A stretch of DNA of 64,000 nt from Limnomonas spitsbergensis (lineage: Eukaryota > Chlorophyta > Chlorophyceae > Chlamydomonadales), in assembly GCA_037349105.1 (NCBI GenBank), contig JAYJMM010000095.1, forward strand, positions 1,736,001 through 1,800,000, given 5' to 3'. This document shows positions 360 to 63,535 of this stretch, in pieces. A model generated the notes under the pieces. It saw only the letters and a list, made by a program, of their open reading frames with translations. It was not told where the DNA came from and did not search any database. The position numbers and the translations under genes were made by a program. Within the stretch, counting starts at the first letter, position 1. Each line of letters begins with the position of its first letter.

Positions 360-3300
360 CTGCTAACTGATGATGGCCTCATGCACCTCACCCACCTGGT
401 GGGCCTCACTCGGCTGGCTGTGACGCCCATGGGCCTGGAGGTGACAAAGCGCGGCGTCAGCTCCCTCCTGGCGGCCCTGCCTGCATTACAGTGCCTGGAG
501 CTGGGCCTGCATCATGTGGGACAGGTGAGATAGCGGTCCTTGAGATCAAGAGCGGCTGGGCAGCCAGGAGCCCCAGTCGCAGTGCCTGGGGTTGGGACTG
601 CATTCCCCAACTGCTCCCCGCTCCCTCCCTCCCCCCCCCTGCTCCCCTGTTCCCCCCGCTCCACCTCCACGCCCCATCTTATACCCCTGATCCGCCTCTC
701 CCCGTCTCCCTCTGCTCCTCCCACCCAGGTGAAGGCTGAGTATGTCTCCATCTGCTGCCCTGCCAAGACACTTACTTAGACATCAATTGAATTCATATTA
801 TGCATTATAAGCCGGGGGAGTGTTGGGGACGGGTCCAACCCCCATAGTGACAGGACCCTTGCCCTGCCCCACCTCCGTGCCCAAAACAAACGCTCCCCTC
901 TCCCCCCCTAGGTCAATGCCATGTGTGAACTCACCCTTTCCATCCCTCACGGCTTCCCCCCCTCAGGTAAATGCTGTACGTGACCCCAGCAGTGCCCAAC
1001 ACGTCTCCCTGGTCATCAGCGACCCTGACGCCTCCCCCCTGGAGTGGTCCTCACTTCTGACCAGCTGCACACTGTGCATGTGCGCATCGCTGAGCAGCCT
1101 GAGGCTGGGGCTGATCAAGATGCCAGACGCGACCTTCATGCTGGCGCTGGGTGAGAGGACATGCGGGGTGAAGGGTGGACAGGGGTTGGTGGATCAATCC
1201 TGGCGCTGGTGAGAGGGCAGGGTAGTGGACAGGGCTCATCCATGCTGGCTGTGGATGCGGGGCTTATCTCGGGTTATGGGTGTCCTCATGCTGGTGCTGG
1301 GTGAGAGGCAGGGGCACGGCATCCAAGGAGGGGCCCTTCTAGAGTGTCAGGTTGTCACGTGGATACATTTTAGGCCTCCTGTGTGTGCTGATCAAATTCA
1401 CTTGTCCTTCATTAGTGCACAATTGATCAGAACGGACGGTCAGCCCTGCCTCGCTCTCCACCCCGAGTCCTCAACCCCTTCGTCCACGCAGGCGCTCTCT
1501 CCTGCCTGACTGAGCTCAAGCTGGCTGTCAGCCCAGCCTCGCTCTCCACCCCTCCCTTCTCCCTGGATCTCATGACACTGACTGGACTGCAGCGGCTGGC
1601 CTCGCTGGACGTGGCCACCACATGCAGGGTGGCGATGCCCCTGACACCGCGCATAGTGTCCCTTGCGGCGCTGGCCTGGCCAGGTGGGGGATATGGGTAG
1701 ACGGTGGAGGGATTGGGGACCCTGACCTCAACGCCGAAAAGCAGGGGCTTGAGTTTGCCAGGGATGAAACAGGAAAAATGTGTCTCATGCAATTTGCCGC
1801 TGTTACGTTGCGGCATCTCGGGTACCAGTGTAGCCTTCTATAAGCTTGCAATCGACCTCAAACCCAAAACCTTTGGGGCCCGTTGTTTGCGGGGACAACT
1901 CTCAAGCACCATCTTGGACCCAAACTGAATGAAAGGAATGACTGCTGAAGAACGTCCCCACTATTTCTACCAAATGTCAAACCTGCTGCTGGCATTTCTG
2001 TCCATGATCAAACCCACTGATCCAATTATCAAACCCATTTTCTCTATCAATTCGGAAATCGACTCCTTTGCCGTCTCTCACTACCCCTACCCATTACCTC
2101 GATCCCTCTCTCGCCCTATCCCTCTTTCGCTGCCCTAAACCCTAAATTGTAAACAAGGCCTTGCCTGCTTGCCGCTGTCAGTCAACACCCGGCAATGGAT
2201 TCTGCCAAATTGGCATCTGGAGCCAAGCCCACTATCTATCTTCCCTGGCTTGTCAATTTTATATATCTTGAACCCTTGGCCTTACCCTCTGCATTAGGCC
2301 TGACCTCCCTCGCCCTATCCGTCATGGCCCGGCCCAAGCTCGTGGTGGAGGCCCTCGGTCTGCTGGACCTCTTTTCACGCCTCCATGCGCTCAGCCTGTT
2401 CAGCCCACTGGACTACATAGACTCAGATCAGCAGGTGCCGGGCAGCCGGCAGGTCGGCACCGCTGCCGGGTGCAGGCCCGCGGCAGAGGTCAATCTCTCC
2501 TACCTCCCGCTTGGGCTCAAGCACCTGCATATAGAGCACGCACACCTTGTGACACGCACACCATCGTGTGGAGGGGCTGTAGCCGCCCTGGCTGGAGGTG
2601 CAACAGCAGCAGCGTCTGGGTCAGCCGAAACGGCGACCATTACAAACGGTACTGGGTCTCGTAGCCTGCCGGGCCTGCAGACGCTGGAGGTGGATTCGTG
2701 TGAGCTGCATGACGGTGCCCTGATGGACATCCTGCGCGCTTCGCCCGGCCTGCGGCACCTAGAGCTCATCAGCGTGAACGGTGTCTCCGGACCAGGCTTG
2801 CTGGCTGCTCTGTCAGGCATGACAGCGCTGCAGCATCTTGTGCTGACCGACATATCAGAAGGAGCGCCCGAAGGGGGCGACTGTGCCACCGCACCTAGCA
2901 GGCGCACCGCCCTGGCCTCACTTAAGCAGCAGCAGGGGCAGCCACAGCAGCGGCTGGTTTCGGAGTGCCTGGAAGGGCTGGGCGACGCGTTGGCGGCGGC
3001 AGCAGCCTCCCTGAGGCACGTGGAATGGGCGCCCGGCGCAGACCTGCTGCCGGCGGCATTCATGAGGGCGGTGGGGCCGGCCGTTTTCAGCCGCCTTACA
3101 GCCCTCAGATTTTTGTATGTCGATGCGGAGGAGGATTTTGCTCGCCTTGGCACAGAAGCCTCCTGGGCCAGCGGCAGCAGCAGCGGGGGAGGGAGGGATG
3201 TGGATCATGGGAGCGGCAGGGGCAGCGGAGGAGGGGGAGGAGGAGATAGCCATGCTGCCTGCTCTTGGCAGCAGGAGATCAGGGCCTGCCTGCCGATGTG

Positions 3301-3394
3301 CACGGTGACTGCGCGAGCGTCACAATGCATGTCAGAGTATGACATCTATGATGATGTCATGATCCATGCTAGTGGCGCGTTGAGGTGGGCATAA
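360..3394 (+). CDS. Leucine-rich-repeat protein (3' part, four exons)
   Basis: Exons are 360-524, 967-1150, 1492-1683 and 2298-3394 (stop TAA 3392-3394). Phases close at every join, giving 545 residues. No start codon is assigned because the gene probably begins upstream of the window or in earlier exons. Repeated LxxLxLxx patterns are clear: LVGLTRLAV, LPALQCLELG, LTELKLAV, LQRLASLDV, LTSLALSV, LHALSLF, LKHLHI, LQTLEV, LRHLEL and LQHLVL. Irregular 24-30 residue spacing suggests an RNI/AMN1-like horseshoe for protein binding. The last exon carries Ala- and Gly/Ser-rich low-complexity stretches. No kinase, TIR or NB-ARC domain is seen. The partner is unknown. Intron 1 contains two extra acceptor-like copies of the exon-2 start. 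Confidence 0.72.
725..985 (+). repeat. Three successive acceptor/exon-start look-alikes in LRR intron 1
   Basis: The sequences AG|GTGAAGGCTG (about 729), AG|GTCAATGCC (about 910) and AG|GTAAATGCTG (967) are each preceded by a C-rich tract and followed by similar bases. Only the third opens an exon whose phase fits both neighbours. The other two look like older copies of the same 3' splice site. Confidence 0.5.
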
Positions 3395-4582
3395 CCAAGT
3401 TTTCGTGTGTGAGATTAGGTGTTGCCGCAGTTGACTCATCCAGAGTGTGAACGCGGTGTGTTTTAACTTCAGAGGTGTGAGCTACAGTGATGTGAACGTT
3501 GTGTGTTTTAGTTCTGGATGTGTTACAGCGAGGTCTGAAAAAACGGCAGGTGTTATCTCTGCAGTTTGTTCTCCTCTCAGCCCCCTTGCCTGCCTTTTCC
3601 TGTCTCTTTGCTTCGCCTCACAGAGGCATTAAAAGCTATGGTAATAGCGGATAGTGGCTGAACACCAGGAGTGGTTTGGTTAAATAATCATTAACCTTTG
3701 GGTGCACACTGCCGTCAGATGCTTGCACCTTTTCAGGGCGGGCGCAATAAGGACGAGCCCTTCCTTGTCTCTCAAGGGTTCCATTTACTTTTTAAATCTG
3801 GCCACTTAAAAAGGTCCATTGGAGAAAGACAAGAATAATGACTTGTGTGCTTACTTTCGATTAGTCCTTACATCGGCTGCAAATGTGTTTTTAAGCAGTT
3901 ATCGGTATCTATGGCCAAGCCGTCTTCTTATTGTGGTGCTGCTGAAGCTTTGATTCATGTAAAACAAAGTTTAAAAAAACTGAAACACTAACAAAATATT
4001 GCAGCGTTATGCGTTCAACGCTGGAATTGACCAGGTTGCAGCTTCATCAAAATGATTGTGAGATCCTCAAGAGAAAAGCACGACAATGCCCCTTACTTCC
4101 CACAACCTTCGTCCACAGCCTTCCGTAGTCGTCAGGGAGGATGCCGAGAGCTTAAAAAGTGTGCAGCCCATTGGTGACCAGCAGACAGGCGTGCTGAGCC
4201 CAGATCACTCAGTGAGCGGCCTCAGTGGATGATTGGTGATTGCCGCGAAAGTACAGTGCGCAGCGCATTTGTAGGGTTGTTCAAATTACTGCCTGGCCCC
4301 TTTCGACACAAGGAGGGAGGAGCCTCCCTTAGATGGCTGTGTTTACTCTGCAACAACTAAATTGTACAGTCCAGGGTGCAAAAGGGCACTGGGGACGAAT
4401 TTCCCATCTTAGACAAATCAAACACTACAAACAGACACAATGGGGCCCTATCCAGCAGCTCAGACTAGCGATTCCTAAATTCCACCTCAGATTTCCCACC
4501 AGCCCATTAGCTCGCAGGAATGATAACGCTGCATGTGCCGCGTCCCTTTTCCCATACAGAGCGCACATGCTATGATGTATAA
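3395..4582. other. Intergenic region between the LRR gene and SDH3
   Basis: These are the convergent 3' flanks of the LRR gene (+) and SDH3 (-). The sequence is AT-richer than the exons. No open frame with recognisable protein similarity, RNA gene or repeat was seen. Confidence 0.5.
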
Positions 4583-6640: not shown

Positions 6641-6992
6641 GATGCCAAAGGCAATACTGAGTCGTTCGGAGGGGCAACGACATGATGATGTTGTCGGGTT
6701 TTTTACCTGAACTGCTGAGCTTGTGATCCGGTCAGCTCAAGCGCAAGCTCCCTTAGCGGATTAGCATGAGACTGAAGTTGCTGAAGGATGCGTCGAGACG
6801 AGTGCCGGAGCATTTCTAACTGCTGCACTAAATAAAGATCGCAATAATTGTGTAAGATTGAAAGGCCACGCGTCTATGAACCCAGTGCAGCCCCAGTCCC
6901 ATGCCCGTGTGGTTGTTCGATCGAGCTCCGAAACTTATATATGCTACATTGTGAGGTTGGGGAGACCGACGGAGTAAGTATCGTGTGATAAA
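6641..6992. promoter_or_regulatory. Putative bidirectional promoter of SDH3 and SDH4
   Basis: Only 352 bp separate the two divergent start codons, so both promoters and both 5' UTRs must lie here. A TATA-like TATATATG sits at about 6936-6943, roughly 50 nt before the SDH4 ATG. No clear TATA box was seen for SDH3. Shared control of two subunits of one complex is inferred from layout only. Confidence 0.55.
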
Positions 6993-12700: not shown

Positions 12701-15700
12701 TCCATAACATGCATCAGCCTCTGCTCATAAATACATATGACAGGCCAAGCAGTCACAGCTGCTGCCATGAATGACGGAGCTAGTAACATCAAATATAATT
12801 ATATAAAGTATACTAGTTACTACCTGTATATGTCAGGGTGTTTCAGCTACACTTCAGCTTCAACCCTGCCTACGATCATGGCAACTGGCAGGGTAATCAC
12901 TGCTGCTTGGATCATTGGCCATAGGGGTCCAAGGGTTGGTCCCCTACGCTGGTTTAAACAATGCTGGATGCACAGCGGCCCCCCCAGGTCATCTGGGACA
13001 CACCACTCAAAAGTGGACGCTTCTCCCGGCTGGTCCTCCACTCTCAGCTAGGTAAGTTTGAATTCCCTCCCTGTTTATGCACACCTTGGCTGTCTTCTTC
13101 CCCAGCTGCTTCTTGATGTAATCAACCATCATGAATGTGCCCAAGTCCGAGGGAACACTGTTACAGGGGGGTAACGGGAGGGTGCAGGTGGTTACAGGAC
13201 ACTGCCACAGCTCTTGTTACATCAGGACACAAATATCAGGCAGTGGCAGTGTCACAGCTGAGGGTAAGTGAACTAATGAAGCACTTATATGCAGCTCATG
13301 ACACTATCGGGTGGAGGCACAGGAAGGCAAAAGGGAGCTTGGGGGTACAAAGCTCAGGGGAACTAAAACGCTTCCCTCAATTCAGCTCTGGACAGTACCT
13401 GTCGTAGGCACAGGAGTGCACCAGCTTGATTCCCTTCTCTTGTGCAATCTTGTTATGCTTCAGGAAGTCTTTCTTGACAAACGGCATCTCCCCTGAAAGT
13501 GGGGGAAATGAAAGCTGCTCAGGACACGTGTTGGGTCTTGGCAAACAGCGTTTCGCCTTGAGACACAAAAATCTGTCCAGGAGACCCGAGCGTATTAACA
13601 TATATCTGGGTAACTAATCACTCGCTTTCACGAGGGGCTATGCAATTGAAGCCTCTGGATTCTGCCATCTCTACCGTAAGTTGCCCCCCACTGGAGCAAA
13701 TTATTGAAAGGGAAGCAAATGGGAAACCTGGAAGCCACACGTGCTCAGACAGGCTAGCTCCGCACAGACCCAGCACCGATGGATTCAATTGAATGGAGAT
13801 GACGTCCATGTCGTGCACTATGAGTATCATCCAGGTATCAGTGGTGCTCCTATGGCAGGTGGCTGAAACAACCAACCATATGGCTTTATATCACTGACTG
13901 GATCAGCCGCCTGAATTTTTGACAAACATGACTCCCTCGCAACCCAGACAGGGTGAGGTCGCCTGGAATGCAATTTAGGCACCTCACCCGTGACCATGTC
14001 AGGGTGGCACACACATGAGGTGCACATATAAAACGCCTGATCCAGGTGGTACACATCAGATGGAGTACACCTTTTCATGTCCTTGTAGTACTCCTGCAAT
14101 AGACATGTAAGACACCTGCTAATCTCCACGTATTGCAGCCATGCTGCCCTGCCCTGTAATCTCTCACCTGTGATGTCACAGTAGTGTGTCCCTTGCTCAA
14201 TGCATTGCTCCAGGACCTGCGTTGTAGACATGGGGTTTAGAGGGGGGGGAGGGTATTAACCCAGTGTTGCTTCACCCCAGCATTTACGAGGTCCCCTTTG
14301 CAAGACTGGGCCAAGCAGACCATGCAGAATCTTATAAAGCCTTTTGCTCCAGGACCTGCGTTGTAGACATGGGGTTTAGAGGGGGGGGGGTATTAACCCA
14401 GTGTTGCTTCACCCCAGCATTGCTCCAGGACCTGTGTTGTAGACACGGGGGGCACCACAGGTGTAGGGGTTAGGGGGGGAGTATGAACCCAGTGTTCCTT
14501 CACCCCAGCATTGCTTCGCTGCACTTCCGTGTCCGGTACCTTGTGCGTGATGGATGATCCATCGGCCATTGATGCAGGGTCCAGGTCTACCCATCAGGCC
14601 TCCAGCTTTCTCCAGCACCCACCCTGCACCCACCCACCCTGCAGGATACTGAACCACTTGTAGTGCAGTTCTGTCTTTGACCCTGTTGCCTGGCAATCTG
14701 TCTGTCAACACTGCCAGGGCCCCTACATAAGTGAGCTGCTGGCTTTTGCTCCTCTCAGGACCTTGCTGGCTTCTTTTGGCTTCTTCTTTGAGTTTGTTTG
14801 GTATCTGTCTCTGGTTGCCCCTTCAATGAGGACCAGCGGGCTTCTTCGATCAGGTATAGCTGGGAGGCACTGCACAGTTATTTTGCTATCAGTGTCCAGC
14901 CAGCCTCTCTACACAAAATAGCTGCGACACTTACTATGCTTGAAGCCCCCAGCTAGAAGCTGCAAAAGGAGGAATAGCCTCTGAGAATAATGATTGTGTA
15001 TGTTTTGAGCTACTGATTATGATCAGCTGAGAGCTGGACCTTACCAGGCCACTGCTGGGCCTCATACTGGCCCCAATACTCACTCGAGCACCTTTTACTT
15101 GTATAAGGTGAAACTCGGCTACATCCCTGCCTACAGCCGGGGATGCCCGGTGAAGCAAGCTCTGCAGCTCATGTCTATGGCGATCAACCAGTCAAGAGTT
15201 CTGTCCCCAGCGGCCCAGTGGTGGCCACTTAGCAGCATGCCAAAGCTGGTATTGTGTGCACCACAGAAACACTGGAGACCATGCTACACACCTTCTCCCC
15301 GTACATGGAGTAGGGCCCCGCCATGGCGATGACCACCTTCGTCTGGCTCAGCACCTTGCCGATGGCCGGGCCGTCGAAAGCGTCGGCCACAAGGATGGAT
15401 ATATCCTGCAAGGAGGAGTAGGTGTCAAGGTGAACCACACTGATTGATGCGACAAATCAGGATCAGATTCAGGACATTGACTAGAGTCAGGTTGAAAGAA
15501 TGGCCTTTATCTGGGGAGCCATTCAGAATCAGGACACACAGTCACTACAGGAAACCAAAAGGTGGTACGCGTTTTTGATACATGCCAATTAGTTAAGATC
15601 GTGTCATGGGAAGGATCAGCCATGACACGGAAGGGACTTCTGATATTACACCTGGATTTAGGGTTCAGAGATTTAACCCTAAGCCTCAAACCCTATGGCA

Positions 15701-38874: not shown

Positions 38875-39219
38875 ACCCGCACCTGCAACCACCTTCCGCC
38901 CCCCTGCTCACAACCACACGCAAACCGCATCCTCCCCCTCGTATACCCCTCACACTCTCCCGCACCTGCAACCACCTTCCGCCCCCCTGCTCACAACCAC
39001 ACGCAAACCGCATCCTCCCCCTCGTATACCCCTCACACTCTCCCGCACCTGCAACCACCTTCCGCCCCCCTGCTCACAACCACACGCAAACCGCATCCTC
39101 CCCCTCGTATACCCCTCACACTCTCCCGCACCTGCAACCACCTTCCGCCCCCCTGCTCACAACCACACGCAAACCGCATCCTCCCCCTCGTATACCCCTC
39201 ACACTCTCCCGCACCTGCA
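38875..39219. repeat. 83-bp minisatellite downstream of the hydrogenase
   Basis: About four nearly identical 83-bp units containing CCTGCAACCACCTTCCG, CTCACAACCACACGCAAACC and CTCGTATACCCCTCAC end about 110 bp downstream of the hydrogenase stop. The unit is strongly C/A-biased on the + strand, and the array is open in several frames by composition. Confidence 0.9.
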
Positions 39220-39326
39220 ACCCCCACCCCTGTCCCTCAAACCACCTGCTGTCCTGCACCCGCCTTCCCCCCCTATCCCCTAATCACCTGACTCCACCCC
39301 CTACCCAATCGAAGCCACACCGATAA

Positions 39327-42300: not shown

Positions 42301-45300
42301 CACCTGCGGGTATGAATGGGGGGACACACCACGCAGGAGTGGCTGTCAGGACACACACGGCCGGTCCACCTCACCTACATGCACAGGGCGTCCAGGCTGG
42401 AGCAACTAGGGTGGGTGGGCTCGGAATATGGACTACATGGTGGTTGGGTTTGAAATACGGTATGGTGGTTTGTTTCTCAAACTTGCTTCAATGTGCACAC
42501 AAGATGCAAACAAGTTAAGCTGCACAAGGGTCGAAGGAATAGGGTGCAGTGTTACAGGTTCAGGGTTCAGGGTCTAGGTGGCACTTAAGCTCTCACACTC
42601 CTGCCTGCAGTGCAAACCTTGCTTGCGCACGCAGGGCATGACCGAGCAGCTGAGGATGTTGCTGGGCTTGACATTCATCTCCTCGGCAAAGAAGTGCTTC
42701 ACGACCGACCCCATCATCATCTGGGGGGACTTGCAGCTGGACAGGTACGGGATCAGCTCTGGGTAGGACTTCTCCACCATGGCTGCAGCAGAAGCAGGGA
42801 CGAGATATCAGGATGCCTCCACCATGGCAGGAACAAAGGCTTTGACACAAAATGAAGGGGCCTAGGACCTCACCACCACGGTAGTGGCACGGTTGCAATT
42901 TAAGCGGAGCCAATCAAAACGCAGCAGCATTGTTTTTTCCATGGCGCGCTTCAGCTACAACTCAGCTACATCACGGCCTATGGCAAATCCAAGGGGCACA
43001 GGATGGAAGCAAGTTCCAAACCACACCCCCGGTCTACCAGTGCACACCAGCAGTTGTATTACCAGCAGCAGTTGTATTACAACCGACAGTGCGGGCCTGG
43101 TCTGAAATGGAGTGACATCCGCAGTCTGAAAATGTAGTTCGATGCCAGAAGAGCAGGCATCGTCTGAATTCCTATTTTTCAACCCACATGTCCAGCTATG
43201 CTTGACCGTCACTTGCATCCTGGTGTCAGGTTTATAGGCCTGGCTTACAGGAGTGCTTTGGGCCAGTGTCTTTTGAAGTGCACTGCAACACCTCACGCAG
43301 GCCACTAGGCAGCCACCACAGGGCTCATGTGGACCAAACCTGGATCGGCCCACGGCCAGGGGCCCAAGTAGCAGGACGAAGGGCCCTTGCTGCACCAGGG
43401 CCCCGGCCCTGGCCCTGGCCTGTGATGTAGCTGAATTATAGCTGACGCGCCCCAAAACAAAACAAGCCCTGAAATATATACGAAACCAACCCTGCAATGT
43501 TGAGGGTTGCTCACCAATCCAGCCGGGGCAGCAGGATGTGAACATTGGCAAGGGCTCCCCCTCCTTAGGGTGGGACTCCAAATGCTCCGCAAGCCTGTGC
43601 AGCAGCTCATGGCCCTCCTCCATAATCGTCAAGTCCGCCGCAAAAACGGTGTCTATGGGGCATGAAGGAAAGGAGGCAGGGGTCAGGGAGTATCTCTCAA
43701 GCCTGCCGCAAAGACATTGCCTGCTGAACAAAACACAAGGTCCTGTTACCCAATCCGACCCGAGGGCAGGATGAGGGTTATTACAAGGGGGGATGAAGGG
43801 ATGGGGGTGGGGGTGTAAGGAGGCAGGAGGCTAAGGGAGGTGGGGGCTTCTGATTTTGCTGTTCACATCGGAGAGAGAACCAGGGACAGGCCAGCGACAA
43901 TAAATGGAGCAGGTTCTGTTAGAGGGCAATCAAGACATTGACTGTGTGTGATTTAGTGCCTCCTTGTTCAACAGGGCATATCATGCTCCACCAGTTTGGG
44001 AGCCAAGGAACCGACAAACTATCGACGGCATGCCCCGCCCCTCCTGGGACCCTGGATATCCCCCCCTCCTTCTCACTGACCACTGATACGCCCCCGATAG
44101 ACCACGGACCCTCAAACCGTATGCCCCCCTTGCTCTCAACAGATATTTGCTAAGGAGGACATGCCCTGCCCCCTAAACCCTGAACCCTCCTCCCCATCAC
44201 ACTCACCAAAGACGTAGTCGAAGCCTAGCTTCTTGATGCCTGCTACCAGCTGGCCCACACGGATAGTTCCGGGCGGCAGGCCAAACGCCTCGGATATTGA
44301 CACACGCACGGCGGGGGCCACTGAGATCACCACCAACTTCCTGTCACCTGTCTTGGCTGCGTAATAGGTTGAGTAACGCTTCACATAAAAGTTAAATAAG
44401 TTTGTTTAGGCTTACCGGCACCCCCCCTGCTGGCTCCAGTATTTAGGCAAATTCAATTATGCAGTACCGTGTTTAATGTTAGCTACCTATCTTGTGTAAT
44501 TGAGTGCCAATCCCTACGCATGTGTTTCTGGAGATCGCGGTTTCAGGGTGAAGGGTATGGTATGTCAACATATCACCACCAACCACCTGCCTTCTCTCTT
44601 AACTGCGGAATGTAGCAGGCGTGATCCACTAATAGGTGCATGGCACTTCAGCCAGATGACCACACTTCCACAAGCAGCAAAATGACAAGTTTTTATGCAT
44701 GTTATTTCATTTCATAACCGGTATGTGCAAAATTAAAAAAAGTGCAAAAAGCTCCTTTGCGTACGGTAAGGTACATTTGCTTGTCCTCCTGCACGCCTCA
44801 ACTATTTTGAAGGATCGTTTATATTTCATGTTCGTGTTTGAGAGAAATGTCTCATTGCACAACCTTCTGCACACACTTAACATGTGGATGCATGCAGCAT
44901 GGCATAGAACAATAAAAATATCGAAAAACAGCTTCTCCGCAGATCTCATGCCTGAGGCATTTCTGAAGAAGTAGTCATTGAAACGACAAAGGGAGAGCGT
45001 GAGACACCCTGCTGTGAAGGCGACTGGCATATCTTACTAAGTCCTAAAGAACGAATCGTCATCTTGTTCCATTCTTGATTTCAGCCCTCGAGTCACGGAA
45101 TTCAGCGCCCCAGTATAATTTATTTATTTCGTGGTCGTGGTCTCTACTGTAATTAAATTATGTACGGCATTACCTCGGAATCGTAGCTTAGGTGAGACAC
45201 CAACAAGCTAACAGTATTCGGGCCCAAGTAATAGTAATATTTTTGTGTTGGTCGAGGCCTGGTATTGTAATAATGGTTTAGCGCTGCAGTGTTCTCGGTT

Positions 45301-46329
45301 TCATTGCTGGAAACAAATCATATGCACCCCTTGGCCTGCCTGATTCCTGCTTATTGAAGCAAACTTCAGCTCAGCTACACCCCTGCCTATGGCCGAGGGG
45401 TCTGGTGCAGGGAACACATTCCAGCCCGAGCTACCCGAGCCCATGCCTAGGGCCACTGGCGGATCAAATTTGTCCCTCCCGTCGACCCTGTCGCTGGCGG
45501 CCCTATTAAAGATGGTCAGGCGTGCAAGAAAATAAACAATACAATACTCAGGGTACTATGACCTTGAAACTGATCCAGCTCTCAGCAATGTTAATTTCAT
45601 TACGCATGGGACCACCGTGAAGAGCCCGCTGGGCAGCCACCACTGAGCGTACGGAAACCAAATCTTAACTGGCTGTTGGCCCCAGCAGCAGGGCTTGATG
45701 CGCCCTAGGCCACACATCGTGTCCTTGCTGAATCGTAGCTGAGGCAATCTGGAATAAACACTGCCATGAGCCTGACACTCACCCAGCTCCTCAAGCACAG
45801 TCTTCCAGTGGGCCGGTCCGAAGGCCGCTGTCTTCTTCTTGGCAGCTGCTGCAGGCGGGGGTGGGCACGGCTTGGCTGCAGGCGGGGGTGGGCACGGCTT
45901 GGCTGCAGGCGGGGGTGGGCACGGCTTGGCTGCAGGCGGGGGTGGGCACGGCTTGGCTGCAGGCGGGGGTGGGCACGGCTTGGCTGCAGGCGGGGGTGGG
46001 CACGGCTTGGCTGCAGGCGGGGGTGGGCACGGCTTGGCTGCAGGAGCTGTTGGCTCTGTCGAGGCCTCCTGCTGAGTGACGGCGTATATAGTGAGGGATC
46101 TCCTGCCGCTCAGATGTCGAACAGATCCTGTGTTCAGTGGGCAGGGACTTTGTAGCGAGACGAGAGAGCTGGTTGTTGAGCCGCGGTTCCATGACTACTT
46201 TTTCCGTCAAGGTGCAACTGCACAGTGAAGCTTCCAGGGTTCCATGAGCCCAATTAGCCCAAGGTCCCAAGGGCACAGGTCAACAGCGGCACAGGTGGCA
46301 CGCATACGTGAGTGTAGTCGTGTACCCAT
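39327..46329 (-). CDS. HYDA: [FeFe]-hydrogenase, chloroplast type
   Basis: The protein reduces protons to H2 with electrons from ferredoxin, normally in the anoxic chloroplast stroma. Firm exons: 46127-45783, 44356-44207, 43652-43515, 42782-42618, 42303-42194, 41607-41458, 40775-40584 and 39539-39327 (TGA); all phases close. H-cluster motifs are complete: TSCCPGWI, MPCVRKQ and EIMACPSGCIGGGGQP. Also seen are VAPAVRV, DTVFAADLTIMEEG, GAGLLFGTTGGVMEAALRT, NMVPAPGS and VANGLGNAKKL. No N-terminal Fe-S domain is present, as in other green algae. The first exon (46329-46308, MGTRLHS) is inferred from phase and would give 495 residues; the leader RRSLTIYA|VTQQ looks like a transit-peptide site. The stop overlaps a GTGAGTG donor-like site, so a further 3' exon is possible. 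Confidence 0.9.
40047..40114. repeat. Two adjacent perfect hairpins in the last hydrogenase intron
   Basis: GTCCCGACATAG (40047) pairs with CTATGTCGGGAC (40081-40092), with an inner AACTCG/CGAGTT pair. Directly after it, GGACGGATGCC pairs with GGCATCCGTCC around a 4-nt loop (about 40089-40114). Both lie inside a segment (about 39860-40410) bounded by CTCGGG- and T-tract-rich sequence that may be a MITE. Confidence 0.8.
40423..40456 (-). repeat. Copy of the dispersed CAGCTACA...GCCTA repeat, reverse orientation
   Basis: GGCCATGATGTAGCTGAATT is the reverse complement of the core seen at 42951. It lies in the last hydrogenase intron, upstream of the TTGTTG-poor 40584 exon edge. Only the core is delimited here. 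Confidence 0.5.
41694..41735 (-). repeat. Duplicated splice acceptor and exon start in hydrogenase intron
   Basis: On the minus strand, TTTGAG followed by AGTCTGCCAGATGAGGACTT copies the true exon start at 41607 (AGTCTTCCAGATGAGGACTT). It lies about 120 bp upstream of it. It would encode S-L-P-D-E-D-F, then diverges. The downstream copy is the one that phases with the rest of the protein. Confidence 0.8.
42951..43000 (+). repeat. Copy of the dispersed CAGCTACA...GCCTA repeat
   Basis: TCAGCTACAACTCAGCTACA followed by TCACGGCCTATGGC. It is the clearest copy of a short element that also occurs near 12841, 15111, 40931, 41978 and 45366 (+) and 38541, 40423, 43411, 45728 and 50768 (-). Nearly all copies are in introns. 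Confidence 0.6.
45851..46039 (-). repeat. Seven 27-bp units encoding a Cys-Pro-rich linker in the hydrogenase
   Basis: Seven exact 27-bp units start at 45851, 45878, 45905, 45932, 45959, 45986 and 46013. In the hydrogenase frame each codes nine residues, A-K-P-C-P-P-P-P-A. The block lies between the presumed transit peptide and the catalytic domain. Being a multiple of three, changes in copy number would keep the frame. Confidence 0.93.
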
Positions 46330-52430: not shown

Positions 52431-52440
52431 GCATACGCAT

Positions 52441-52945: not shown

Positions 52946-55900
52946 TTAAGTATTCACTTGAGGGCAGCTAGCCAGAAGATACTCCAACTGTTCCAGCGGC
53001 AAGCCCATAGCCGCCGCCAGCCTGGCTCGCTGGCTGCCAGGCAGGTCCAGCAGCAGTCCAAGCAGCGCCCCGTCCACACTTCCGCTTGGAAGGTCATCGT
53101 GGGATGCTGTGCCCACCCCCTCTGTGTCCCCACTCCTCATCCCTCCTTCCCCAAGCACAAGCTCCCAGCTGCGGGCATGCCCGGAGTACCCGTCGTCCCC
53201 TGCTTCCAGCCAGCGGGAGACTGCTGTCAATCGTTGCAGCTCCTTGTCAGGCAGCCTCTGCAACCTGGCCTGCAGATCCAGTAGTGAGGCAGAGATTGGA
53301 TCCGAGCGGGCTCTGAAACCCAGCGAGACCACTGCCCCGTCAGCAGCAAAGCACAGAACCTGCTGCGGAAGGAGGCTGCCGGCCGCCGCCGCTGCTGCTG
53401 TGTTACAGCCACCTGACGTTGCCTTCTGGACGGCGGCGGTCGCTGTGATCTCGGTGGAGCCCTCGACCGGCGTAGGCTGCATGGAGAGGCCCAAGTGCCC
53501 CGCTGCCATCTTGTACACCGGGTGGCTCAACCTTGCTGACAAGGCCTGCGAGAAAAACGGCAGTGTCATACACAACGAGATGAAAAAGCGAGAGAAACAG
53601 AAAGACACGGAATGCATGCAAATAAAGCATCCCAGCTGATAAGCCCCTTCCGCAGTCAAACAGCTCTAGTCGGCGGTCTGAGGCACATGCTGTCTCTGCT
53701 CCTTCAGGTCATATTGACAGGCCCTCACTAAAAAGGCTCTGGGGGGAAGCGCCGATGCAACGACCACCACCACTGACCATGTGCCGCAACCTGGTGCCCT
53801 ACCCTGTCCTCTGCCCTGCCCCGGCACGTACCGCCTGCATTCCTGGGCACTGTCGTGGCTTGAGGCCGAGCAGGTGCAAGTGGTCAGGGCGGGAAGCAGC
53901 TGCTGCCGCCGCAGAAGAGGACGCTGAGGAGCCGTCCGCCGGGCGCTGCGGACGGCTCGCGCTGATCCTTTGTCGAACACCTGCTTGTGTAGCAGGGAGG
54001 CGGGAGCATATTCAAGGAGCAGCGCAGCCCTAAGGGAGAGGGAGGAGCAGGGCAGAGGACCTGCGCAGCGGAAGAGGATGCGGGAAGGATGGTCGCTGGA
54101 CGCTGCGCTGCAATGCATGCCTGAGGCCAACACCTGCCCATGGAGGGCTTGGAGGTGTAACGTCATTGACCTGCCCATGGATTGCTTGGAGGTGTAACGT
54201 CATTGACCTGCCTATGGAGAGGGGTGGCGTGGAGGGCACCTTCATTCGCAGCAACAACGAGGAAGGAAATAGGAAGCTGCTTTGGGGGTGATGCGTATTC
54301 TGGGTTTAGGGCTTTGTCCTGTGAGGCTGCAGTGACCAAAGAGGACCAAAAGTTGGTTGGGCGCAACCGTATCCGGTTCAGCGATTTAGGGTTTAGGGTA
54401 TTTTTGTCAGGGCTCACATCTATTTGTTCTAGGGCCAATTATCGTCATTGTATCCTAGAGGATCAGAAAGGGGTGACACTGACCTGTTTCATGCTCGACC
54501 TGCGCCTTCCTCTGGGCGGCAAGCAGGAAGGAATCCTCACGCTGCTCATCCCTCCGAAGCACAATCAAGCCTAAACAAGGCAACCAGAGTGTGGAGTCGA
54601 TGGAAACAAGACAGGACTTAACGGCAGCCCCAAATCAGAAGTCGGTTTTAGTCGAATGCTGTGTTTATAAAAAAGGTTCAGCAATACTCTGTTTTGATCA
54701 CAACTCCATTTCAGAGGCTCTCCCAAATTCCAGGACTCCCGGATATACCTCCCTTCACACAGGGGGCTGACCACCCGGGACATTAACCCGCTCCTGTGAG
54801 GGTGGCAGCGTTGCAGTCCAGATGTATGAACTGCTCGTTGGGCGCCGTGAGGTAAACCTGACCTGCCCAGGCTAGACCCTTACAGTCAGGAAGAATGAGG
54901 GCATCACCAAAGGCCAACAGGGAGACATAGGCAAGCTGATTTGGGGGACATGGGGTTTCGGAGGGTCAGGGTTACACTTATGTTTACAGATAACACTTGT
55001 CACATATCTTCCGCCTTCATATTTTATACGGTGAACAAAACCATTGTTTTAGTTTATTAAGCGTTGCCTTGCTACAAGGATGCATACTTTCTGATCACAT
55101 GCCTTAAGGCGTGTGTCCAGGCTCTCTCACCTGCCCCACGCATGACCTGTCACCTGTCACATGTATGAACCCACACCTGCCTCATGCATGCCCTCACCTG
55201 TGGGATGCACTGCTGCCACCACCTCCGTACTTGACAAGGGCAGCATGCACTGAGCGAATAGGGCATGCCTACAGGGGGGGGAGGACGTGATGCAGTGGAT
55301 TGTTAAATTGGGTGGCAGCAGCCCCAATGTGCTGGGAGGTGAGATCTTGTTGGTTTGTGTGTGGCCGTGGTTTCCTCCTCCCCCTCCCCCCCTCCCCCCC
55401 TCCTCCTCCCCCCCTCCCCCCCTCCCCCCCTCCTCCTCCCCCCCTCCCCCCCTCCCCCCCTCCCCCCCTCCCCCCCTCCCCCTCCCCCCTCCTCCTCCCC
55501 CCCTCCCCCTCCCCCCCTCCCCCTCCCCCCCTCCCCCCCTCCCCCCCTCCCCCCCTCCCCCCTCCTCCTCCTCCTCCCCCCCTCCCCCTCCCCCCCTCCC
55601 CCTCCCCCCCTCCCCCCCTCCCCCCCTCCCCCTCCTCCTCCCCCCCTCCCCCTCCTCCTCCCCCCCTCCCCCCCTCCCCCCCCTCCCCCTCCCCCCCTCC
55701 CCCCTCCTCCTCCCCCCCTCCCCCCCTCCCCCCCTCCCCCTCCCCCCCTCCCCCTCCCCCTCCCCCCCTCCCCCCCTCCCCCCCTCCCCCTCCCCCTCCC
55801 CCCCTCCCCCTCCCCCCCTCCCCCTCCCCCCCTCCCCCCCTCCCCCCCTCCCCCCCTCCCCCCCTCCCCCCCTCCCCCCCTCCCCCCTCCTCCCCCTCCC

Positions 55901-58900
55901 CCCCTCCCCCTCCTCCTCCCCCTCCCCCCCTCCCCCCCTCCCCCCCTCCCCCCTCCTCCCCCTCCCCCCTCCCCCCTCCTCCCCCTCCCCCCCCTCCTCC
56001 CCCTCCCCCCCTCCCTGTCACATACCTGCCGCCATTGGCACTAGTCCTGTCCCTCAACTCCCCACGGATGAGATCACTCTCACTCACCCACACCAAAGGT
56101 ACCCCCCTCCCCCCTTCCTCATCCCTCCTAACTAACTCCTCTCAGCTACCTGCCCCCACAGACAGGAGTCTGCCCCTTCCTCAAGCAACCGCCATCATGT
56201 GTCACCTCCCCCCACACCTTCATCCCCCTTCCCTTCACATGTCAGCTGCCAGTGCCTTCCCTACCTTGGTACTCAAGTGACAGAGCACCATCACAGGCCC
56301 CCTCCCCCTCCCCCTCCCCCTCCCCCTCCCCCTCCTCCTCCCCCTCACGTGTCAGCCGCCACTGGTACCAGGCCCACCCCTCCCTCGTTGCTGACGAGGC
56401 GGAACACGGTCATGGATCCCAGGAACTCGGAGGCGAAGATGATGTTGCCCTGGGCGTGTACCGAAGTGACCACAGCCTGGGCAAAGGCCTCCCCCTTATC
56501 AACCTGCGGAAAGGAAGGGGGGAGGGGGGGTATTGAATGGTTCAGAGGATTTGTAAGTCCAGAGAGGATGTTGCCTAGAGCATACACCGACGTTACTCCC
56601 GCATGATCACAGGGCTGCTAACCTGCGGGAGGGGTTGGGGCGGAGAAACATGGAAGCGGAGAGGAAGATATCTGGGCATGCACCGAGGTGACCATCAAAC
56701 GTGTCCAAAGGCCTTCCCCTGATCAACCTGAAATGCGGCAGCGGGATGAGAGTTCAAATCAAAACCAATATTGTGAACCAGCATGTGATATGTCTTTTGT
56801 GGTTTGTGACAGCATTCATGAGAAATCTGTTTGAAAGTCAAAGTCGTGATCCCCAACTTCCACATGGCTTTTCCGCTTTACGCATCCTTTACACTGGATA
56901 GGACACTCGAATGGACAACTCGTATGTCAGGGAGACATACTAAAAAGATCTAAGCGATGCATGTTGGCTAAACAAAATGGGGCGAAGAGACTTTCCTGTA
57001 ATATACACTGGCAGATTGGTACCGGTACAGTCATTGCGATGTACAAATCAAGGTTTCATACCGAATATCATATCATTGCTATCTCATTGTCCACATCCTT
57101 CATGATGGCTTTAGCTCACATAACTCTCACGTCACATCAAGTGCCACGCGCCACACCAAGTAAGAGTGCCTCTGAATAGGGTACCCATGCTCCACTCTCG
57201 CCTTAACACATTTGACATTTCACATTGACCATTTCCAACACCTCATCCGCACACGAGTACAGTGCTACACTTGTCACACCAACAACACCATAGTGGCACA
57301 AGTCACACCTTTCACACTTGTGATTCTCACCAGGGTAAGCGTGACGTGCTGGTTCCAATCGCGCCTCAGGTGGGCCTGTGCCGCCGCCTGGGCCTGCCGC
57401 GATCTCCGGCTGCGTGGGTGCGGCCATGGGGTCGTTCCTGCGCCGCTGGATGGCCCCGCTACACCTGCACCACACATGCGACAATTCATTGCCCACATTA
57501 AAAACATTTTATTTTGGAAAGCTGCTGCTTATGCCGTGTTATCTCCTCTTGCTGCGATATTGATATGTGCTCATACAATGTATACCATCGTCGAGAGAAG
57601 CGTTTTTTGTGCGGCAGAGGTCTTCCTCTTCATACATGAGACTGCATCTGGACTGCACTGTCGTATGGAGATATGTCAGTAACCCTCAAACCCTAGACAC
57701 TAAACCAGGAGGCCTTGAGAAACAGCTCCGCCATTATACTGGAGTCTCAGTCATAATGCGTTGCACAGTTCGGTTTTCTGAAATCAAATGGTTAATTTCG
57801 CACGCACCGGTACACTAAAAGAAGGAAATAACAAAACAACATTTCCGTCCTCAACCTTCAAAACACCGGCCATCACAAATGGGCGCTGTTCATGCCGCAG
57901 ACACACTTCGACCGGGATAGATGGGTACGTTTATTTTGCCGAGTACTTGCTGGAATGAAGGCACTGGCTAGTTTGGAAATGCTGAGTGGTTCTGGAGCAA
58001 AAATTGACCAGTGATCAGAAATGAACAGAAACGATGTACCATGTGATCGATAATCATTTGGGGATTAAAGCCAGAAAGCGAACTTTAAAAAGACGAATTT
58101 TGATTTCCCCCCCCCCTCAAGTTATTATTATTAGAGTACCGTAGACTTGTTTTGCCTCTGCGAACGAGAAATAAATTAAGTTTTTAGCTAAAGCGCTTCG
58201 CTGGAGATTTTTTTTTGACGTCCCAAAAGTGGCGTTTTCCGCTCAAGTTGGGGTTTTCATAAGGGGCCTGTCACTAAGGGGGTCGGACAAGTCCCATGAC
58301 AACCGCATTCGACCCTTAGGATGGGGCCTTTCCGCGCAAAAAGCTTTACTGGCGTCCAGGCTTAAGCTTTTTAATACGGAACGAAAGTTCGCTTTTTTCC
58401 CTGACGAACTTTTTGTGCGGAAAGGCTCTGTCCCGGCCGATCCCCCCTGTTTTGGGGGGACTCGTTCGACCCCCCCAGTGACAGGCCCCTTGTTTTCATG
58501 AGGCGACAGCAAAAAACATAAATTTCTTGCGGAGGCAAAGAGTGTCTATGGTTTAAAAAGTTAAATTATGATTTTTATGCTACCCTCAGTACGAAATTTC
58601 GACAGCCATTCTCCATTTCCGACAGAAACTGTTGTTGATGATATGAGCATATTGTATCCCCTCACCCCCAAACTTCGTAATTATTGGGGAAGGCAGAGCA
58701 CATCAACAACAACCCAAATCTTCAGCCCTTGTCGTGCAGACCGGCCCCTACCTCCGCCTCCATCTGAGCCTGAGCTGTCGTCCTCGTCCTGACCCCCCCC
58801 TGCTCCGTGTCGTGCCCTGAAAGAGGTAGGGTTCAGGTAGATGTTCAATGACACTGACATCAGTAAGTCACACTATCTGAGCAATGTCAGGGTTTCAACA

Positions 58901-61900
58901 GGATGCAGGTGCTGCAATCACATCTGCTCCCTGTCCGGCCCTAAGGCAGTGTGAGCGGAGAGGCGACGGCAAGTTGAGGGTTAAATATGAGGGTTTGGTT
59001 AGAAAATAAATCACACCTGCTTTCTGACAGGACCTACAGGAGCCCCGGCAGAGAGGCAATGTGCAGTACATTTAGAATGACTACTTCATGGTTCATTTTT
59101 ATACTTAACATGCGGTACTTTGGGCAGCATCAACGTTGACCGATTCGTGTTGCCCATAAAGCAGCATTCACCCCCCCCATCTGATGTCCCTCCCTATTGC
59201 CGATGTTCATCCCCCCTCCCCCCCTATCACACCTCTCATACACATCTTGCAGGTCCTCCTCCCCGCTGCTGTCCCCGCCGCCACCTCCCGCCCCGCCCCC
59301 GCCCGGCCCCGCAACCAGCTCCTCAGCAGGCGGGGGGACCATGAAGGGCAACATCTCCACCTGGGAGATAGTTGCAGCCAGGCCATGTACCTACACAGGC
59401 AGAAAGGTCCACAAGGAGGTTTAAATATGCTGCAAACTCGAATGGAGGGAGGGACTTCACGTGATCTCCTGCCCCTTTTGCCCAGACCTTTGCTTTTACT
59501 TCATTTCCATAATTTCCATAATTTCACAAGAGATAGGATTCGACCATGAATCGGTGTATGAATGGTTGGGCTAAATGAATGATATTGTGCATCTAGCTTG
59601 CGAAAAAATATTGTTAATTTCATTTTTTTATGTACCAAATGATAAAAAGGGAGAATTACAACACCACTTTGCCAAACAGTCGGTCTCCTTCCTACTTCTG
59701 TAGGCGGTGTGCTCAACTAGACTCCTTTCCACCCACGGCAAGTTTTTGTATTGGGGCTTAACTTTCTGCGCTGTGGGTTTCATTCTCTTGAAACTGGTCA
59801 GCACTTGTGTGTTGTTTGCTTGCCCAGGGGGGTCAGTATGTTCTGCTCTGTCCTGGTTTATTTAGCCCTCGGAAATCGAGTTGCGGCACCTGTCCCATGC
59901 ATCAAACCTGATGCTCCACTGGACTGAAGAACCTTCACTAAAGGGCCTAAAGGAAACCCTGCTTACCGCTCTCGCCCCATCCGTGTTGAGGTCGTCGATG
60001 TGGACTCGCAGCGCAAGGACGCCCTCCTGGCAGCCCGCAATCAGCAGCGGCGCTTCCGGGCCGCGGGAGGCTGGCGGCGTCAATGGGGGCCTCGATGACG
60101 GACCTGCCGGACGTGAGCACCCAATAAAAGGAGGGGTTATCCAGGAATGAAGGCAGCATAACATATTGAAAAGGGTGGGGGGCGAGAATCTTCCACTGCT
60201 CACCTGCTGCTGCTGCTGCTGTGGCCTGCCACTCTGGGCGGGCGCTGCATGTTGCCATGCAAACGCTGGGCAGCGGACACGTCCCGTGCAGGAGCAAGCC
60301 GTAACGCACTGAAGAGGCGGCGGCAGCTCCAGCTCCTGCGGCCGCTCCTTTTCCCGCTGCTGGTTCCAGCACTTGCAGGGTTACCTCAAAGAAGGACAGC
60401 AGGCCCTGAGGAGTATACCAGAGGTACAAAATCAGGGGCTGAAAAGGGCGCTGAAGGGCACACCATATACACATAAACACACAGCATGTCTTCAACACAT
60501 AAACAAATACACGTACTGGAACTCACACTTTTAAATCCTGAAAGACAAACATATACACACTTGTATTTGCATAAATACACACACATGTACAAACACCCCG
60601 TCCCCACCCCATGCCACGTGATTCTTTTTTATGCAAACCCTCCGCCCTATGCCACAGCCCTAAATGTGCAATAGCATCCACTCCCTTTGCTCCATCCACA
60701 CACTCTTCCCTCCCTCAAACCCAATCCATCTGCGTATTCTGCAACCCTCAGGCCATCCAATTAAACCATACACCCTCAACCCCAACCCCTCAACCTACCC
60801 ACCTGCGTCTTCTGTAACCCAGCGGCCATCCGTTCGTCCGTTTTTTTGTCATATAGGAGATATGAAGCCAGGACCACAAAGGCCTTGCCGGCGGCATCGG
60901 GAGCCGTTACTTGTAACCCCACATCTTTGAGCCCAGTCTTCCCGTCATCGCCCGCAGAAGCAGGGGCACGTGGAGCAGAGTGTCTGCTGGAGTGTGAATG
61001 CACCTGGGTTGCGGATGAGGGCTCAGGGTTCAGGTTCAGGGGTCAAAGTTCATCACTTCAGCTGAACCCATAGGCCGAAGAGTTTGGGGGGTTCAGGGTT
61101 CAGGGGTCAGTTGAGCCACTCCTCCAAACGGGTTCAGAGTGGAGGACTGGAGCTGAGCCCGTAGGGTGAAAGCTTCAGAGTTCAGGGGTTGAAAGGGGTC
61201 AGGGTTCAGAGATTTCAGGGGTCAGGGTTCAGGGGTCGGGGTGGACACATTGCTAGAATAGCACAGGACCATCATTAACAAGAACACACAACTCACACAT
61301 GAGGGTGCAGGGGTCGGGGTGGACACATTGCTAGAATAGCAAACGTCCATCATCAACAACAACACGCAACTCACGGCAATGCGTTAAACAGCATATGTAG
61401 AGAAGCTCACGTCTCAAATCCCCCCAATAATAAACACATCCGGTCCGGCCATACATATTTACTTACGGTATTAGATATCGTCGTTTCAGGGTTGAGGTTC
61501 AAGTTTGGGAAAGCCTCACCTTGCCCTGCTTGCCCGTCTGAGACCCATCCGGCAAGAAGCCCTGGGAGCTACACGGAAGCTGCTCAACGCCCAGCGAGCT
61601 GTAGTAGTGCCCGCCCGCCAGCCTGCAAGTCGAAAGCCCATACACGATCACACATGTATGAACACACGGAAGCTGTGAGGAAGCTGACAGGTTTCATACT
61701 ATGGAGATCATGAGGGGATCAGCAGCTGTGCTACTTAATTAGCCTGTACTAGACAACCTTCAACGACCGGCCGCCGGCTGGGCAGCCACAAACGGGCTTA
61801 TGGGGACCAAAACTTCACCTCCCTCCCCCTGGCAGACCAGGCATCAGGCCTTACTGCACCATGATCCCCCCCAGCCACAGGCTGAGAGGTAGCTGGCACA

Positions 61901-63535
61901 CACGCAAAATGACATGCTGACTAAATATGCACCAACTAGCTGCATGGGGAGCAGCAGCAACAACAGAAGCATCAACAACGGCATCAACAGCAGCAGCAGC
62001 AACAGCAGAATCAACAGGGACCTCTGGCTCTGATATGCATCCAGGGTTTAAGGTAGCCCCGGTAAACTGGGCTCGGGGCAAACACATACAATATTGCCAC
62101 TCTCCCCATCTGCCACAGCCGAGAGGTATTGGCTGAGAGCTTGAAGGCGCAACTGGCTGCATTGGGGGTCGGGGATTCATGCTGTAAATCAGGGCTGTTA
62201 GGACCGGGCTGGAATTTCGACTTCCCAGCCCAGCCCTAACAGCCATGACTTGCAACAGCGTGTCAGCATGCATCAGCTAGAGCCAGGAGTCCCCCAAAAG
62301 GTCCTGGGCGAGCACCACGTAACAGTGGCTGACAGCAGTAGGGTTTAGGGTGGTCGTTTCAATTTTTGAATCTCCCCCCTCACCTGACAGCCATGACTTG
62401 CAACAACGTGTCAGCATGCACCAACCGAAGCCAGGAGTCCCCCAAGAGGTCCTGGGAGAGCACCACGTAACAGCGGCTGGCGGCGTGCAGGCAGGCGTGA
62501 TGGGGTGTGTCACCTGAAGCAAATGAGGATAAAGGAAAGGTTGCAACGCTTGGAAGAGTTAACAAATAATACCGGGACAAAACCTGAAATCCTGAGAATG
62601 AAGATGGGGATCTGGACGGAAATCAGGATTGCTTTTCGACTGCAGCGGGCTTTGGCTGGATTGCAGTGCACAACAAATCATTGAAAGCTATATCAACTCA
62701 GTCCTCAACATCATATTGAGCTCCCGCACGGCATTGCTTCATTGTGTTTACTTCCAAGCACTGCCGGAGTCTACCCGATTCCAACCTAGTCCGCCCAGCA
62801 ACATTATCACGCACCCCCAAATTAGATAGATGTGTGCGGAGGTAGAGAGAATGTACAACAACTTTTGAACAGGGTATCAGCTGTACCCCAAGAGGCCAGC
62901 AGGGGTTGAGGTTGAAAGGGGTTGCAGGGTCCAGGTCTTACCGGATCTTAAAAGGTTATCAGGGTCTTAGGTATAAGGCCATTCAGGGCTTTCCAGGCCA
63001 AGGGAGAAGAGAACAAGCCACTACCAACCCTTCCCTTCCCTAGCCCGCCCACCCACCCTGGCTGTCCCATCCCAGCCATCCAAGAACACCTCCCCCACCA
63101 CCATTCAACACTTTCACGCCACCAGCAGTGTCTTTTTAGGCTGCACACGATACCCCACCCCTCTCCGAAAACCGAGAGAATAATACTTCCATCAGAACAA
63201 CAACAAAATCGAAAGAAAAAAATACATACCCGGTTATGCCTCGCAGGGGGGGTAAATTTTGTGCCTGCGGCACTCTTCTTCAAGATGTCAGTTGTAAGAA
63301 TGTTGATCCTGACCATCCCAACATCTCCCAACTCTCCATCACCAGTATCCCCTGCACTCCCTCCCCCCACCTTACCAATATGTGCCGTGCTCCATCTGAG
63401 CCTTTCCCTGACGTCCAGGAGGCCGAACAGCAGCCGCCCGTCCCTCCCCACCCACGCCATGCTCCCCGCTGGCATGGAGGGCGTGTGGACTGGGCAAACC
63501 GCACGCAGCCCGCCAGCACCATGGACTCGGAGAAC
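52946..63535 (-). CDS. CPSF_A/DDB1-superfamily protein (5' end not found)
   Basis: Exons accepted: 63535-63376, 62513-62384, 61622-61520, 61003-60803, 60405-60204, 60103-59967, 59395 to about 59240, 57458-57331, 56503-56349, 54570-54484, about 54060 to 53990 (tentative) and 53545-52946 (TAA). Most phases close. The motif order follows the beta-propeller C and C-terminal helices of DDB1, SF3b130 and CPSF160: SMAWVGRDGRLLFGLLD; IGDTPHHACLHAASRCYVVL; SWLRLVHADTLLQVM; FVVLASYLLYDKKT; GLLSFFEVTLQVLEP; LLIAGCQEGVLALRV; AQGNIIFASEFLGSMTVFRL; LIVLRRDEQREDSFLLAAQR; LCFAADGAVVSLGFR; and LLDLQARLQRL. Members scaffold ubiquitin ligases or mRNA processing; which branch this is cannot be told. The exon near 58790 (DEDDSSGSDGG) is uncertain, and the 5' end probably lies beyond the window. 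Confidence 0.72.
54143..54216. repeat. Short direct repeat of about 38 bp
   Basis: GGAGGTGTAACGTCATTGAC followed by CTGCC(C/T)ATGGA occurs twice in tandem, at about 54149 and 54189. It lies just upstream, in the minus sense, of the tentative penultimate exon of the CPSF_A-type gene. Confidence 0.75.
55371..56016. repeat. 646-bp uninterrupted homopyrimidine tract
   Basis: The + strand contains only C and T across this whole stretch, built from C4-C8 blocks separated by single T or TCC. The minus strand is all purine with dozens of G4-G8 runs. It lies in an intron of the CPSF_A-type gene. All three + frames and some - frames read through as Pro/Ser/Leu or Gly/Glu/Arg purely by composition, so these are not genes. 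Confidence 0.97.
58261..58491. mobile_element. 231-bp MITE with 15-bp perfect ends and 8-bp target duplication
   Basis: The ends AAGGGGCCTGTCACT and AGTGACAGGCCCCTT are perfect inverse copies; similarity continues inward (GGGGGTCG, CCTTTCCGCGCAAAAAG with its near complement). GTTTTCAT occurs on both flanks (58253-58260 and 58492-58499). It sits in an intron of the CPSF_A-type gene. The 8-bp duplication suggests mobilisation by a hAT- or P-like transposase, though the AAGGGG terminus is not the canonical hAT CAGGG. Confidence 0.92.
59830..59945. repeat. Half copy of the 47604-47936 foldback family
   Basis: GTTTATTTAG, GCGGCACCTGTCCCATGCAT and GATGCTCCACTGG resemble the left flank and left arm at 47575-47640. 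No inverted right arm follows. It lies in an intron of the CPSF_A-type gene. Confidence 0.5.
61020..61260. repeat. Degenerate TTCAGGG array, telomere-variant-like
   Basis: GGGTTCAGG, GGGTTCAGGGTTCAGGGGTC and related units recur with irregular spacers, resembling diverged TTTAGGG. Short TTTAGGG pairs also occur at 54388 and 62341, and CCCTAAACCCTAAA at 2133. It lies in an intron. Confidence 0.6.
62238..62340 (-). pseudogene. Decayed duplicate of a CPSF_A-gene exon
   Basis: This segment copies most of exon 62513-62384 (coding CYVVLAQDLLGDSWL, then MHADTLLQVMAVR) but reads TAG where the real exon has CGG (Arg). It has also lost its donor: AG|GTGAGG is replaced by AGGGCTGG. It lies in the next intron, with about 45 bp between the two copies. 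The real exon alone satisfies phase on both sides. Confidence 0.85.

Follow-up and report, generated by a model that had tools for sequence, protein, structure and literature searches.

Tandem repeats are enriched towards both intron ends in Chlamydomonas reinhardtii and Volvox carteri, as stated in a green-algal repeat survey (PMC3887541), and introns can be gained via tandem duplication of exonic AGGT segments, according to another report (PMC2891723). The present work concerns a 64,000-nucleotide stretch of the green alga Limnomonas spitsbergensis (contig JAYJMM010000095.1, positions 1,736,001 to 1,800,000), here called the window, in which introns carry copies of the edges of the exons that they adjoin. 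The survey shares with this locus the green-algal setting and the repeats near both intron ends; however, it counts repeats, and the decayed exon-edge copies that are the feature here are not described in its accessible part. Likewise, intron gain by duplication has in common the tandem duplication at a splice site, but the copies described here lie within existing introns. No description of decayed exon-edge copies at intron ends was found in the literature, as searched by title and abstract. The initial annotation of the window, made from the sequence alone, had known of no standard element that behaves in this way; the enrichment for the two algae is already in print.

Two other kinds of system invite comparison. 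Minisatellites and local tandem duplication resemble the head-to-tail whole units found in an LRR gene, before exon K3 of a kinase gene and at exon S4 of an SCCPDH-like gene. Unlike minisatellites, however, many of the copies occur singly, are spaced and decayed, and escape Tandem Repeats Finder, and, unlike in whole-unit tandem duplication, the old single copies at hydrogenase exons HA, HB, HC, HC2 and HD and at exon e10 of an unnamed gene show no similarity on the intron side. Introner elements also act at introns, but no sequence was seen to recur in near-identical form across many introns here, and the 91-bp unit of the LRR gene has a single place in the genome.

Copies of exon edges in the adjoining introns

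In the window, 42 exons were annotated by hand from splice sites and reading frames, one of which, HC3, was later dropped: two in the LRR gene, 11 in the SCCPDH-like gene, six in the kinase gene, eight in the hydrogenase gene and 15 in the unnamed gene, which lies on the minus strand. Their edges were compared with the adjacent intron in two ways. The 24-nucleotide (nt) test covers up to 600 nt of intron and takes at least 16 identities as a match, and the 36-nt test uses Smith-Waterman alignment against up to 400 nt of intron, with a Markov null. Copies are present on the intron side beside the matching exon edge, at acceptors as well as donors, at rates far above those of other introns. In the 24-nt test, the exon start has a copy in its own upstream intron at 11 of 39 acceptors, against 20/1482 in other introns, and the exon end has one in its own downstream intron at 7 of 37 donors, against 14/1332, while both wrong-side controls give 0/35. 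The 36-nt test returns 8/40 acceptors both at p ≤ 0.01 and at z ≥ 4, 5/38 donors at p ≤ 0.01 (4/38 at z ≥ 4), and 0/36 in each wrong-side control at p ≤ 0.01. Anchoring the comparison gives the same picture, with 10/40 acceptors passing when aligned on AG (background 5/1560) and 3/38 donors when aligned on GT (background 1/1406).

The copies at acceptors sit 55-246 nt from the acceptor, inside existing introns, and most of the copies are decayed, with 16-20 of 24 positions identical. The hydrogenase gene contributes five of the 11 acceptor matches in the 24-nt test, at 5 of its 7 acceptors compared with 6/32 in the other genes (p 0.012). A gapless search for local duplication, referred to as the strict scan (cluster score at least 18), yields 22 clusters in the real window, whereas six Markov-resampled windows stay empty even at a score of 16, so the duplications are not due to chance.

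Intron interiors carry copies too. Copies at z ≥ 4 were found for 22 of 209 intron-interior 36-mers upstream and for 20 of 243 downstream, concentrated in 9 of the 36 introns. Exon edges are therefore not strikingly higher than intron interiors when counted by segment, but are higher when counted by independent event, an excess that would reflect coding selection on one of the two partners. Positions taken every 250 bases along the window have a copy in 17/250 cases, against 87/270 in 18 stretches elsewhere in the genome.

Duplications in the five genes

As the initial annotation had claimed, local duplications do recur near the splice junctions of unrelated genes. The four acceptor cases that it named do exist, and there are more sites than it claimed: it had not reported the acceptors HA, HB, HC, HC2, S5, e8 and e10, nor several copies on the donor side, including one in the LRR gene. 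In the first three genes the duplications are as follows.

84-392, plus strand: array in the LRR gene, 91-bp unit, 3.4 copies, 99% matches, ending in candidate exon ELLTDDGLMHLT
729-1150, plus strand: LRR exon L2 (967-1150) with weak AG-anchored copies of its start at 729 (15/24) and 912 (16/24)
1136-1158 and 1286-1308, plus strand: end and donor of exon L2 and their downstream copy, found by the strict scan and both edge tests
32670-33226, plus strand: kinase exon K3 (33195-33342) after an array of ten 50-bp units (32670-33172)
14202-14515, minus strand: SCCPDH-like exon S4 (14168-14216) with intron copies at about 14355 and 14431
13399-13556, minus strand: SCCPDH-like exon S5 (13399-13492) with a decayed start copy at about 13556 (16/24, AG kept)

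The LRR and kinase arrays had been placed at 84-387 and 32676-33194, and their measured limits differ slightly. Each kinase unit consists of an intron tail with CCTCCAG and about 25 nt of the start of the exon at 33195. Copies in the LRR gene had further been proposed at about 729/910/967. These have anchored identities well above the 3-9/24 seen at 12 other upstream AG sites, and the one at 912 passes the 24-nt test, but a search that allows gaps does not reach significance (p 0.196). The S4 copies, previously put at 14343 and 14415, comprise the tail, the AG and 15 nt of the exon, at distances of -139 and -215 from the exon start at 14216, and the S5 copy reaches p 0.02 in the 36-nt test. 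A short dispersed repeat (14286-14344) breaks into one of the S4 copies, and 11 of the 40 listed non-self matches fall on it. A dispersed intronic repeat at 15105-15282 takes about 25 of these 40, mostly at 69-79% identity.

The hydrogenase gene and the unnamed gene at 52.9-63.5 kb contain the remaining cases.

41458-41731, minus strand: hydrogenase exon HD (41458-41607) with an exon-start copy, AG included, at about 41725
41365-41458, minus strand: donor side of HD, with an exon-end copy that stops at about 41365 (17/24; z 7.1 in the 36-nt test)
42194-42374, minus strand: hydrogenase exon HC2 (42194-42303), start copy at about 42374 (18/24, AG kept)
42618-42881, minus strand: hydrogenase exon HC (42618-42782), start copy at about 42881 (17/24, AG lost)
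43515-43720, minus strand: hydrogenase exon HB (43515-43652), start copy at about 43720 (18/24, AG kept)
44207-44602, minus strand: hydrogenase exon HA (44207-44356), start copy at about 44602 (16/24, AG kept; z 7.9 in the 36-nt test)
56349-56730, minus strand: exon e10 (56349-56503), copy at about 56727; a second, more decayed copy near 56622 is visible by eye
58752-58940, minus strand: exon e8 (58752-58816), decayed start copy at about 58940 (16/24, AG kept)
60730-61003, minus strand: exon e4 (60803-61003), exon-end copy in the downstream intron that stops at about 60730, without the GT (19/24; z 9.4 in the 36-nt test)
62235-62513, minus strand: exon e2 (62384-62513), copy of its 3' 96 nt at 62235-62331 on the donor side, GT lost

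For HD, proposed as a duplicated module at 41607/41727, the copied exon start and AG hold, and the similarity of the intron tail is not significant. The fifth gene of the initial annotation (62238-62513) does contain an exon copy, which is not an acceptor module but the 3' end of exon e2 copied into the downstream intron.

Reading frames and intron sides of the copies

When the exon-proximal sites are used, the spliced SCCPDH-like and hydrogenase frames have no internal stops. If splicing used an upstream copy instead, no frame would be free of stops: this holds for each copy tried, five in the hydrogenase gene and three in the SCCPDH-like gene, and even the best frame has at least 1-6 stops. 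SCCPDH-like homologues (5/5 aligned) show no insertion or gap around the S3-S4-S5 junctions.

The intron side was copied together with the exon start in S4 (z 16.7) and K3 (z 3.0), and S5 is borderline (p 0.047). Replication slippage, one of the processes suggested earlier, fits the young arrays at S4 and K3, in which whole units were copied with their tails. On the donor side, comparison of 30-nt flanks finds similar intron sides for e4, e10 and e14 (z 4.4-5.1), e10 being low-complexity sequence; with longer intron segments, none of the donor cases reaches significance. Tandem duplications simulated at 0.25 substitutions and 0.05 indels per site and lineage leave the exon copies visible and lose the tail in 4-14 of 20 runs per case, so decay could explain part of the missing tail similarity in the older copies. 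Old whole-unit duplications are accordingly possible, and are not favoured for every case.

Origin of the copies

The copies probably result from frequent but ordinary local DNA duplication, acting at both intron ends, with the exon copy held in place by selection. Local duplication, whether by slippage or by short-range template switching, would be frequent in a genome so rich in repeats, and a duplication across an exon-intron junction would leave the protein unchanged as long as the exon-proximal site is spliced. The second copy would then turn into intron and decay. Such copies are presumably neutral, and old ones would be recognisable at exon edges, and not inside introns, in part because coding selection acts on one of the partners. 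Some copies may expand into minisatellites, as in the kinase and LRR genes.

Several observations weigh against this explanation. Among the 10 strict clusters that lie wholly within annotated genes, six overlap an acceptor, where 3.27 are expected (P 0.055), or 2.56 if exon content is limited (P 0.011); two overlap a donor (expected 3.07 or 2.34), which is no enrichment. Of the six acceptor clusters, that at 54132-54218 merely abuts exon e14 and that at 1439-1552 copies an exon interior. Exon tiles copied upstream at z ≥ 4 fall off steeply with distance, from 8/36 at offset 0-14 to 2/36, 2/35, 1/30, 0/55 and 0/74; the corresponding series for tiles copied downstream on the donor side is 3/36, 1/36, 1/35, 1/30, 1/55 and 0/74. 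AG directly precedes 10 of the 11 acceptor copies (p 0.017 at 75% identity), against GT after 3 of 7 donor copies (Fisher p 0.047). The tails of HA, HB, HC, HC2, HD and e10 lack similarity (z -0.7 to -0.1), although simulation at 0.15 substitutions per site and lineage nearly always keeps it. The e2 copy is identical to the exon at 34 of 36 positions with no similarity on the intron side, and is better matched by a short templated insertion than by whole-unit duplication. Kinase copies at -63, -213 and -363 leave the frame open, and the frame does not decide there. Finally, kinase exons outside the window have copies at 0/21 acceptors and 0/19 donors in the 24-nt test, in a sample that favours strong conserved matches and is not fair to all genes; with the same conserved-match bias, the 36-nt test gives 0/16 and 0/13. 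Ordinary duplication thus leaves as a residue the AG kept in 10/11 copies, the short exon part of 8-31 nt in the acceptor copies of the 24-nt test, and the old tails with next to no similarity.

This residue would be accounted for if 3' splice sites were subject to a mutational process of their own, for instance one coupled to splicing or one of template switching at the pyrimidine tract, that placed copies of the AG and the exon's first 15-30 nt further upstream. The confinement of copies to exon starts, the placement of strict clusters and the hydrogenase acceptors (5/7) point in the same direction. However, donors are copied as well, at a rate not significantly below that of acceptors (Fisher p 0.42 in the 24-nt test) and with 15-34 nt of exon in 6 of 7 cases, and the kinase acceptors outside the window are without copies, which makes such a process unlikely. 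The specificity for 3' splice sites put forward in the initial annotation is therefore not borne out, even if cluster placement leans towards acceptors, and a uniform effect across the genome finds no support in the outside kinase exons. In a related and quite unlikely scenario, introns would lengthen step by step from their ends: splice-site modules, chiefly the AG with the first 15-30 nt of the exon, would be re-copied beside the real site, with breakpoints at the splice junction, and would leave ladders of mock acceptors with AG; this growth could be coupled to splicing or act at the pyrimidine tract. Nothing observed speaks for RNA-templated repair or retrohoming, also suggested earlier: the window, including the dispersed repeat at 15105-15282, has no Rfam match at gathering threshold, and no dedicated reverse transcriptase search was made.

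Retention of AG together with diverging tails would also be expected if the upstream copies were functional alternative acceptors or exons under selection, and the difference between AG and GT retention and the open frame of some kinase copies agree with this. The stops that arise in every frame from the tested hydrogenase and SCCPDH-like copies, the exon overhang of only 8-31 nt and the homologues without an insertion at S4 render it very unlikely. Assembly or polishing artefacts are highly improbable as a general cause. The copy number of near-identical arrays (99% in the LRR gene, 100% in an 83-bp array) could be wrong, but most copies are decayed, unlike the product of a misassembly, and the published assembly was probably the source here and was built on PacBio reads with an L50 of 32.9 kb (PMC11228838).

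If ordinary local duplication at intron ends proves general, decayed exon-edge copies would constitute a fossil record of intron lengthening, readable since coding selection freezes one partner, and would reveal how splicing passes over duplicate sites that are nearly perfect. Gene finders, too, could plausibly mistake any of these copies for an exon start.

Paralogues outside the window

The outside kinase exons were picked by Pfam matches, omitting loci L031 and L032, which have whole-domain matches, and dropping one neighbouring match at a locus end. At locus L036, an array of three 31-bp units spans an exon end (Tandem Repeats Finder only). A kinase paralogue on the same contig (L049) has two modules about 68 bp apart, as counted from the printed sequence, and, this paralogue aside, other matches to the kinase unit reach just 66-70% identity over the array part. 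In the SCCPDH-like paralogue L002, 41 nt of an exon start are copied at 83%, and a third copy is visible by eye.

Gene models and discarded candidates

The SCCPDH-like (oxidoreductase) gene, on the minus strand, yields a spliced protein of 428 amino acids with Pfam PF03435 and 64% identity over 98% to a Chlamydomonas eustigma protein. The kinase product carries PF00069, and the hydrogenase exons, also on the minus strand, can be aligned to the C. reinhardtii Fe-hydrogenase. Neither LRR 2153-3388 nor the spliced e1-e7 protein nor exon e10 could be assigned to a Pfam family; hence, the name LRR rests on reading of the sequence and the 52.9-63.5 kb gene is left unnamed. The latter may resemble CPSF/DDB1. 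Two raw minus-strand frames of 49-64 kb had no Pfam match, and a phage search of the window gave no match.

The hydrogenase candidate HC3 is not an exon, since splicing it in breaks a frame that is open without it. It was counted in the 36-nt edge test and in the background, exon-tile, cluster-placement and AG/GT-anchored tests, with no acceptor or donor match there, and was left out of the 24-nt edge test. A putative exon between S4 and S5 was set aside, as S4 already joins S5 in frame. De novo gene prediction, which chained the whole region into giant genes, was discarded, and a codon-usage scan for exons in the sampled stretches was dropped, its signal being only 0.17 nats per codon.

Repeat background of the genome and the window

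The genome was sampled with 20 ten-kb stretches, 18 at round coordinates on six large contigs and two flanking the window. Tandem Repeats Finder, at periods of at least 20, covers 24.9% of this 200-kb sample with 75 merged arrays and 4.2% of the window with 15 arrays, so the window is array-poor for this genome; coverage per stretch runs from 0 to 100%, meaning that a few giant arrays dominate the sample. The published repeat table lists satellites at 0.10%, simple repeats below 0.01% and unclassified repeats at 22.78% (PMC11228838), and many of the latter may be tandem arrays. The published annotation of L. spitsbergensis comprises 18,277 genes, with RNA-seq and full-length transcripts (PMC11228838).

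Further repeats were noted in and around the genes of the window. In the hydrogenase introns, the strict scan finds a GCCGTGATGTAGCTG-type motif twice, at 41974-42006 and 42948-42980, with a spacing of 974 bp, and motifs resembling GCCGTGATGTAGCTG are visible by eye in other introns. Directly downstream of the last annotated hydrogenase exon, an 83-bp unit is repeated 4.2 times at 100% identity (38876-39222). The array at 45848-46044 has 7.3 copies of a 27-bp unit, also 100% identical, with an open frame that repeats LQAGVGTAW. In the unnamed gene, a 37-bp unit repeated 2.4 times (54132-54218) ends exactly at the acceptor of exon e14, with CAG|GT in each unit, and about 640 bp within an intron (55373-56015) are almost pure C with T, which on the gene strand reads as GA.

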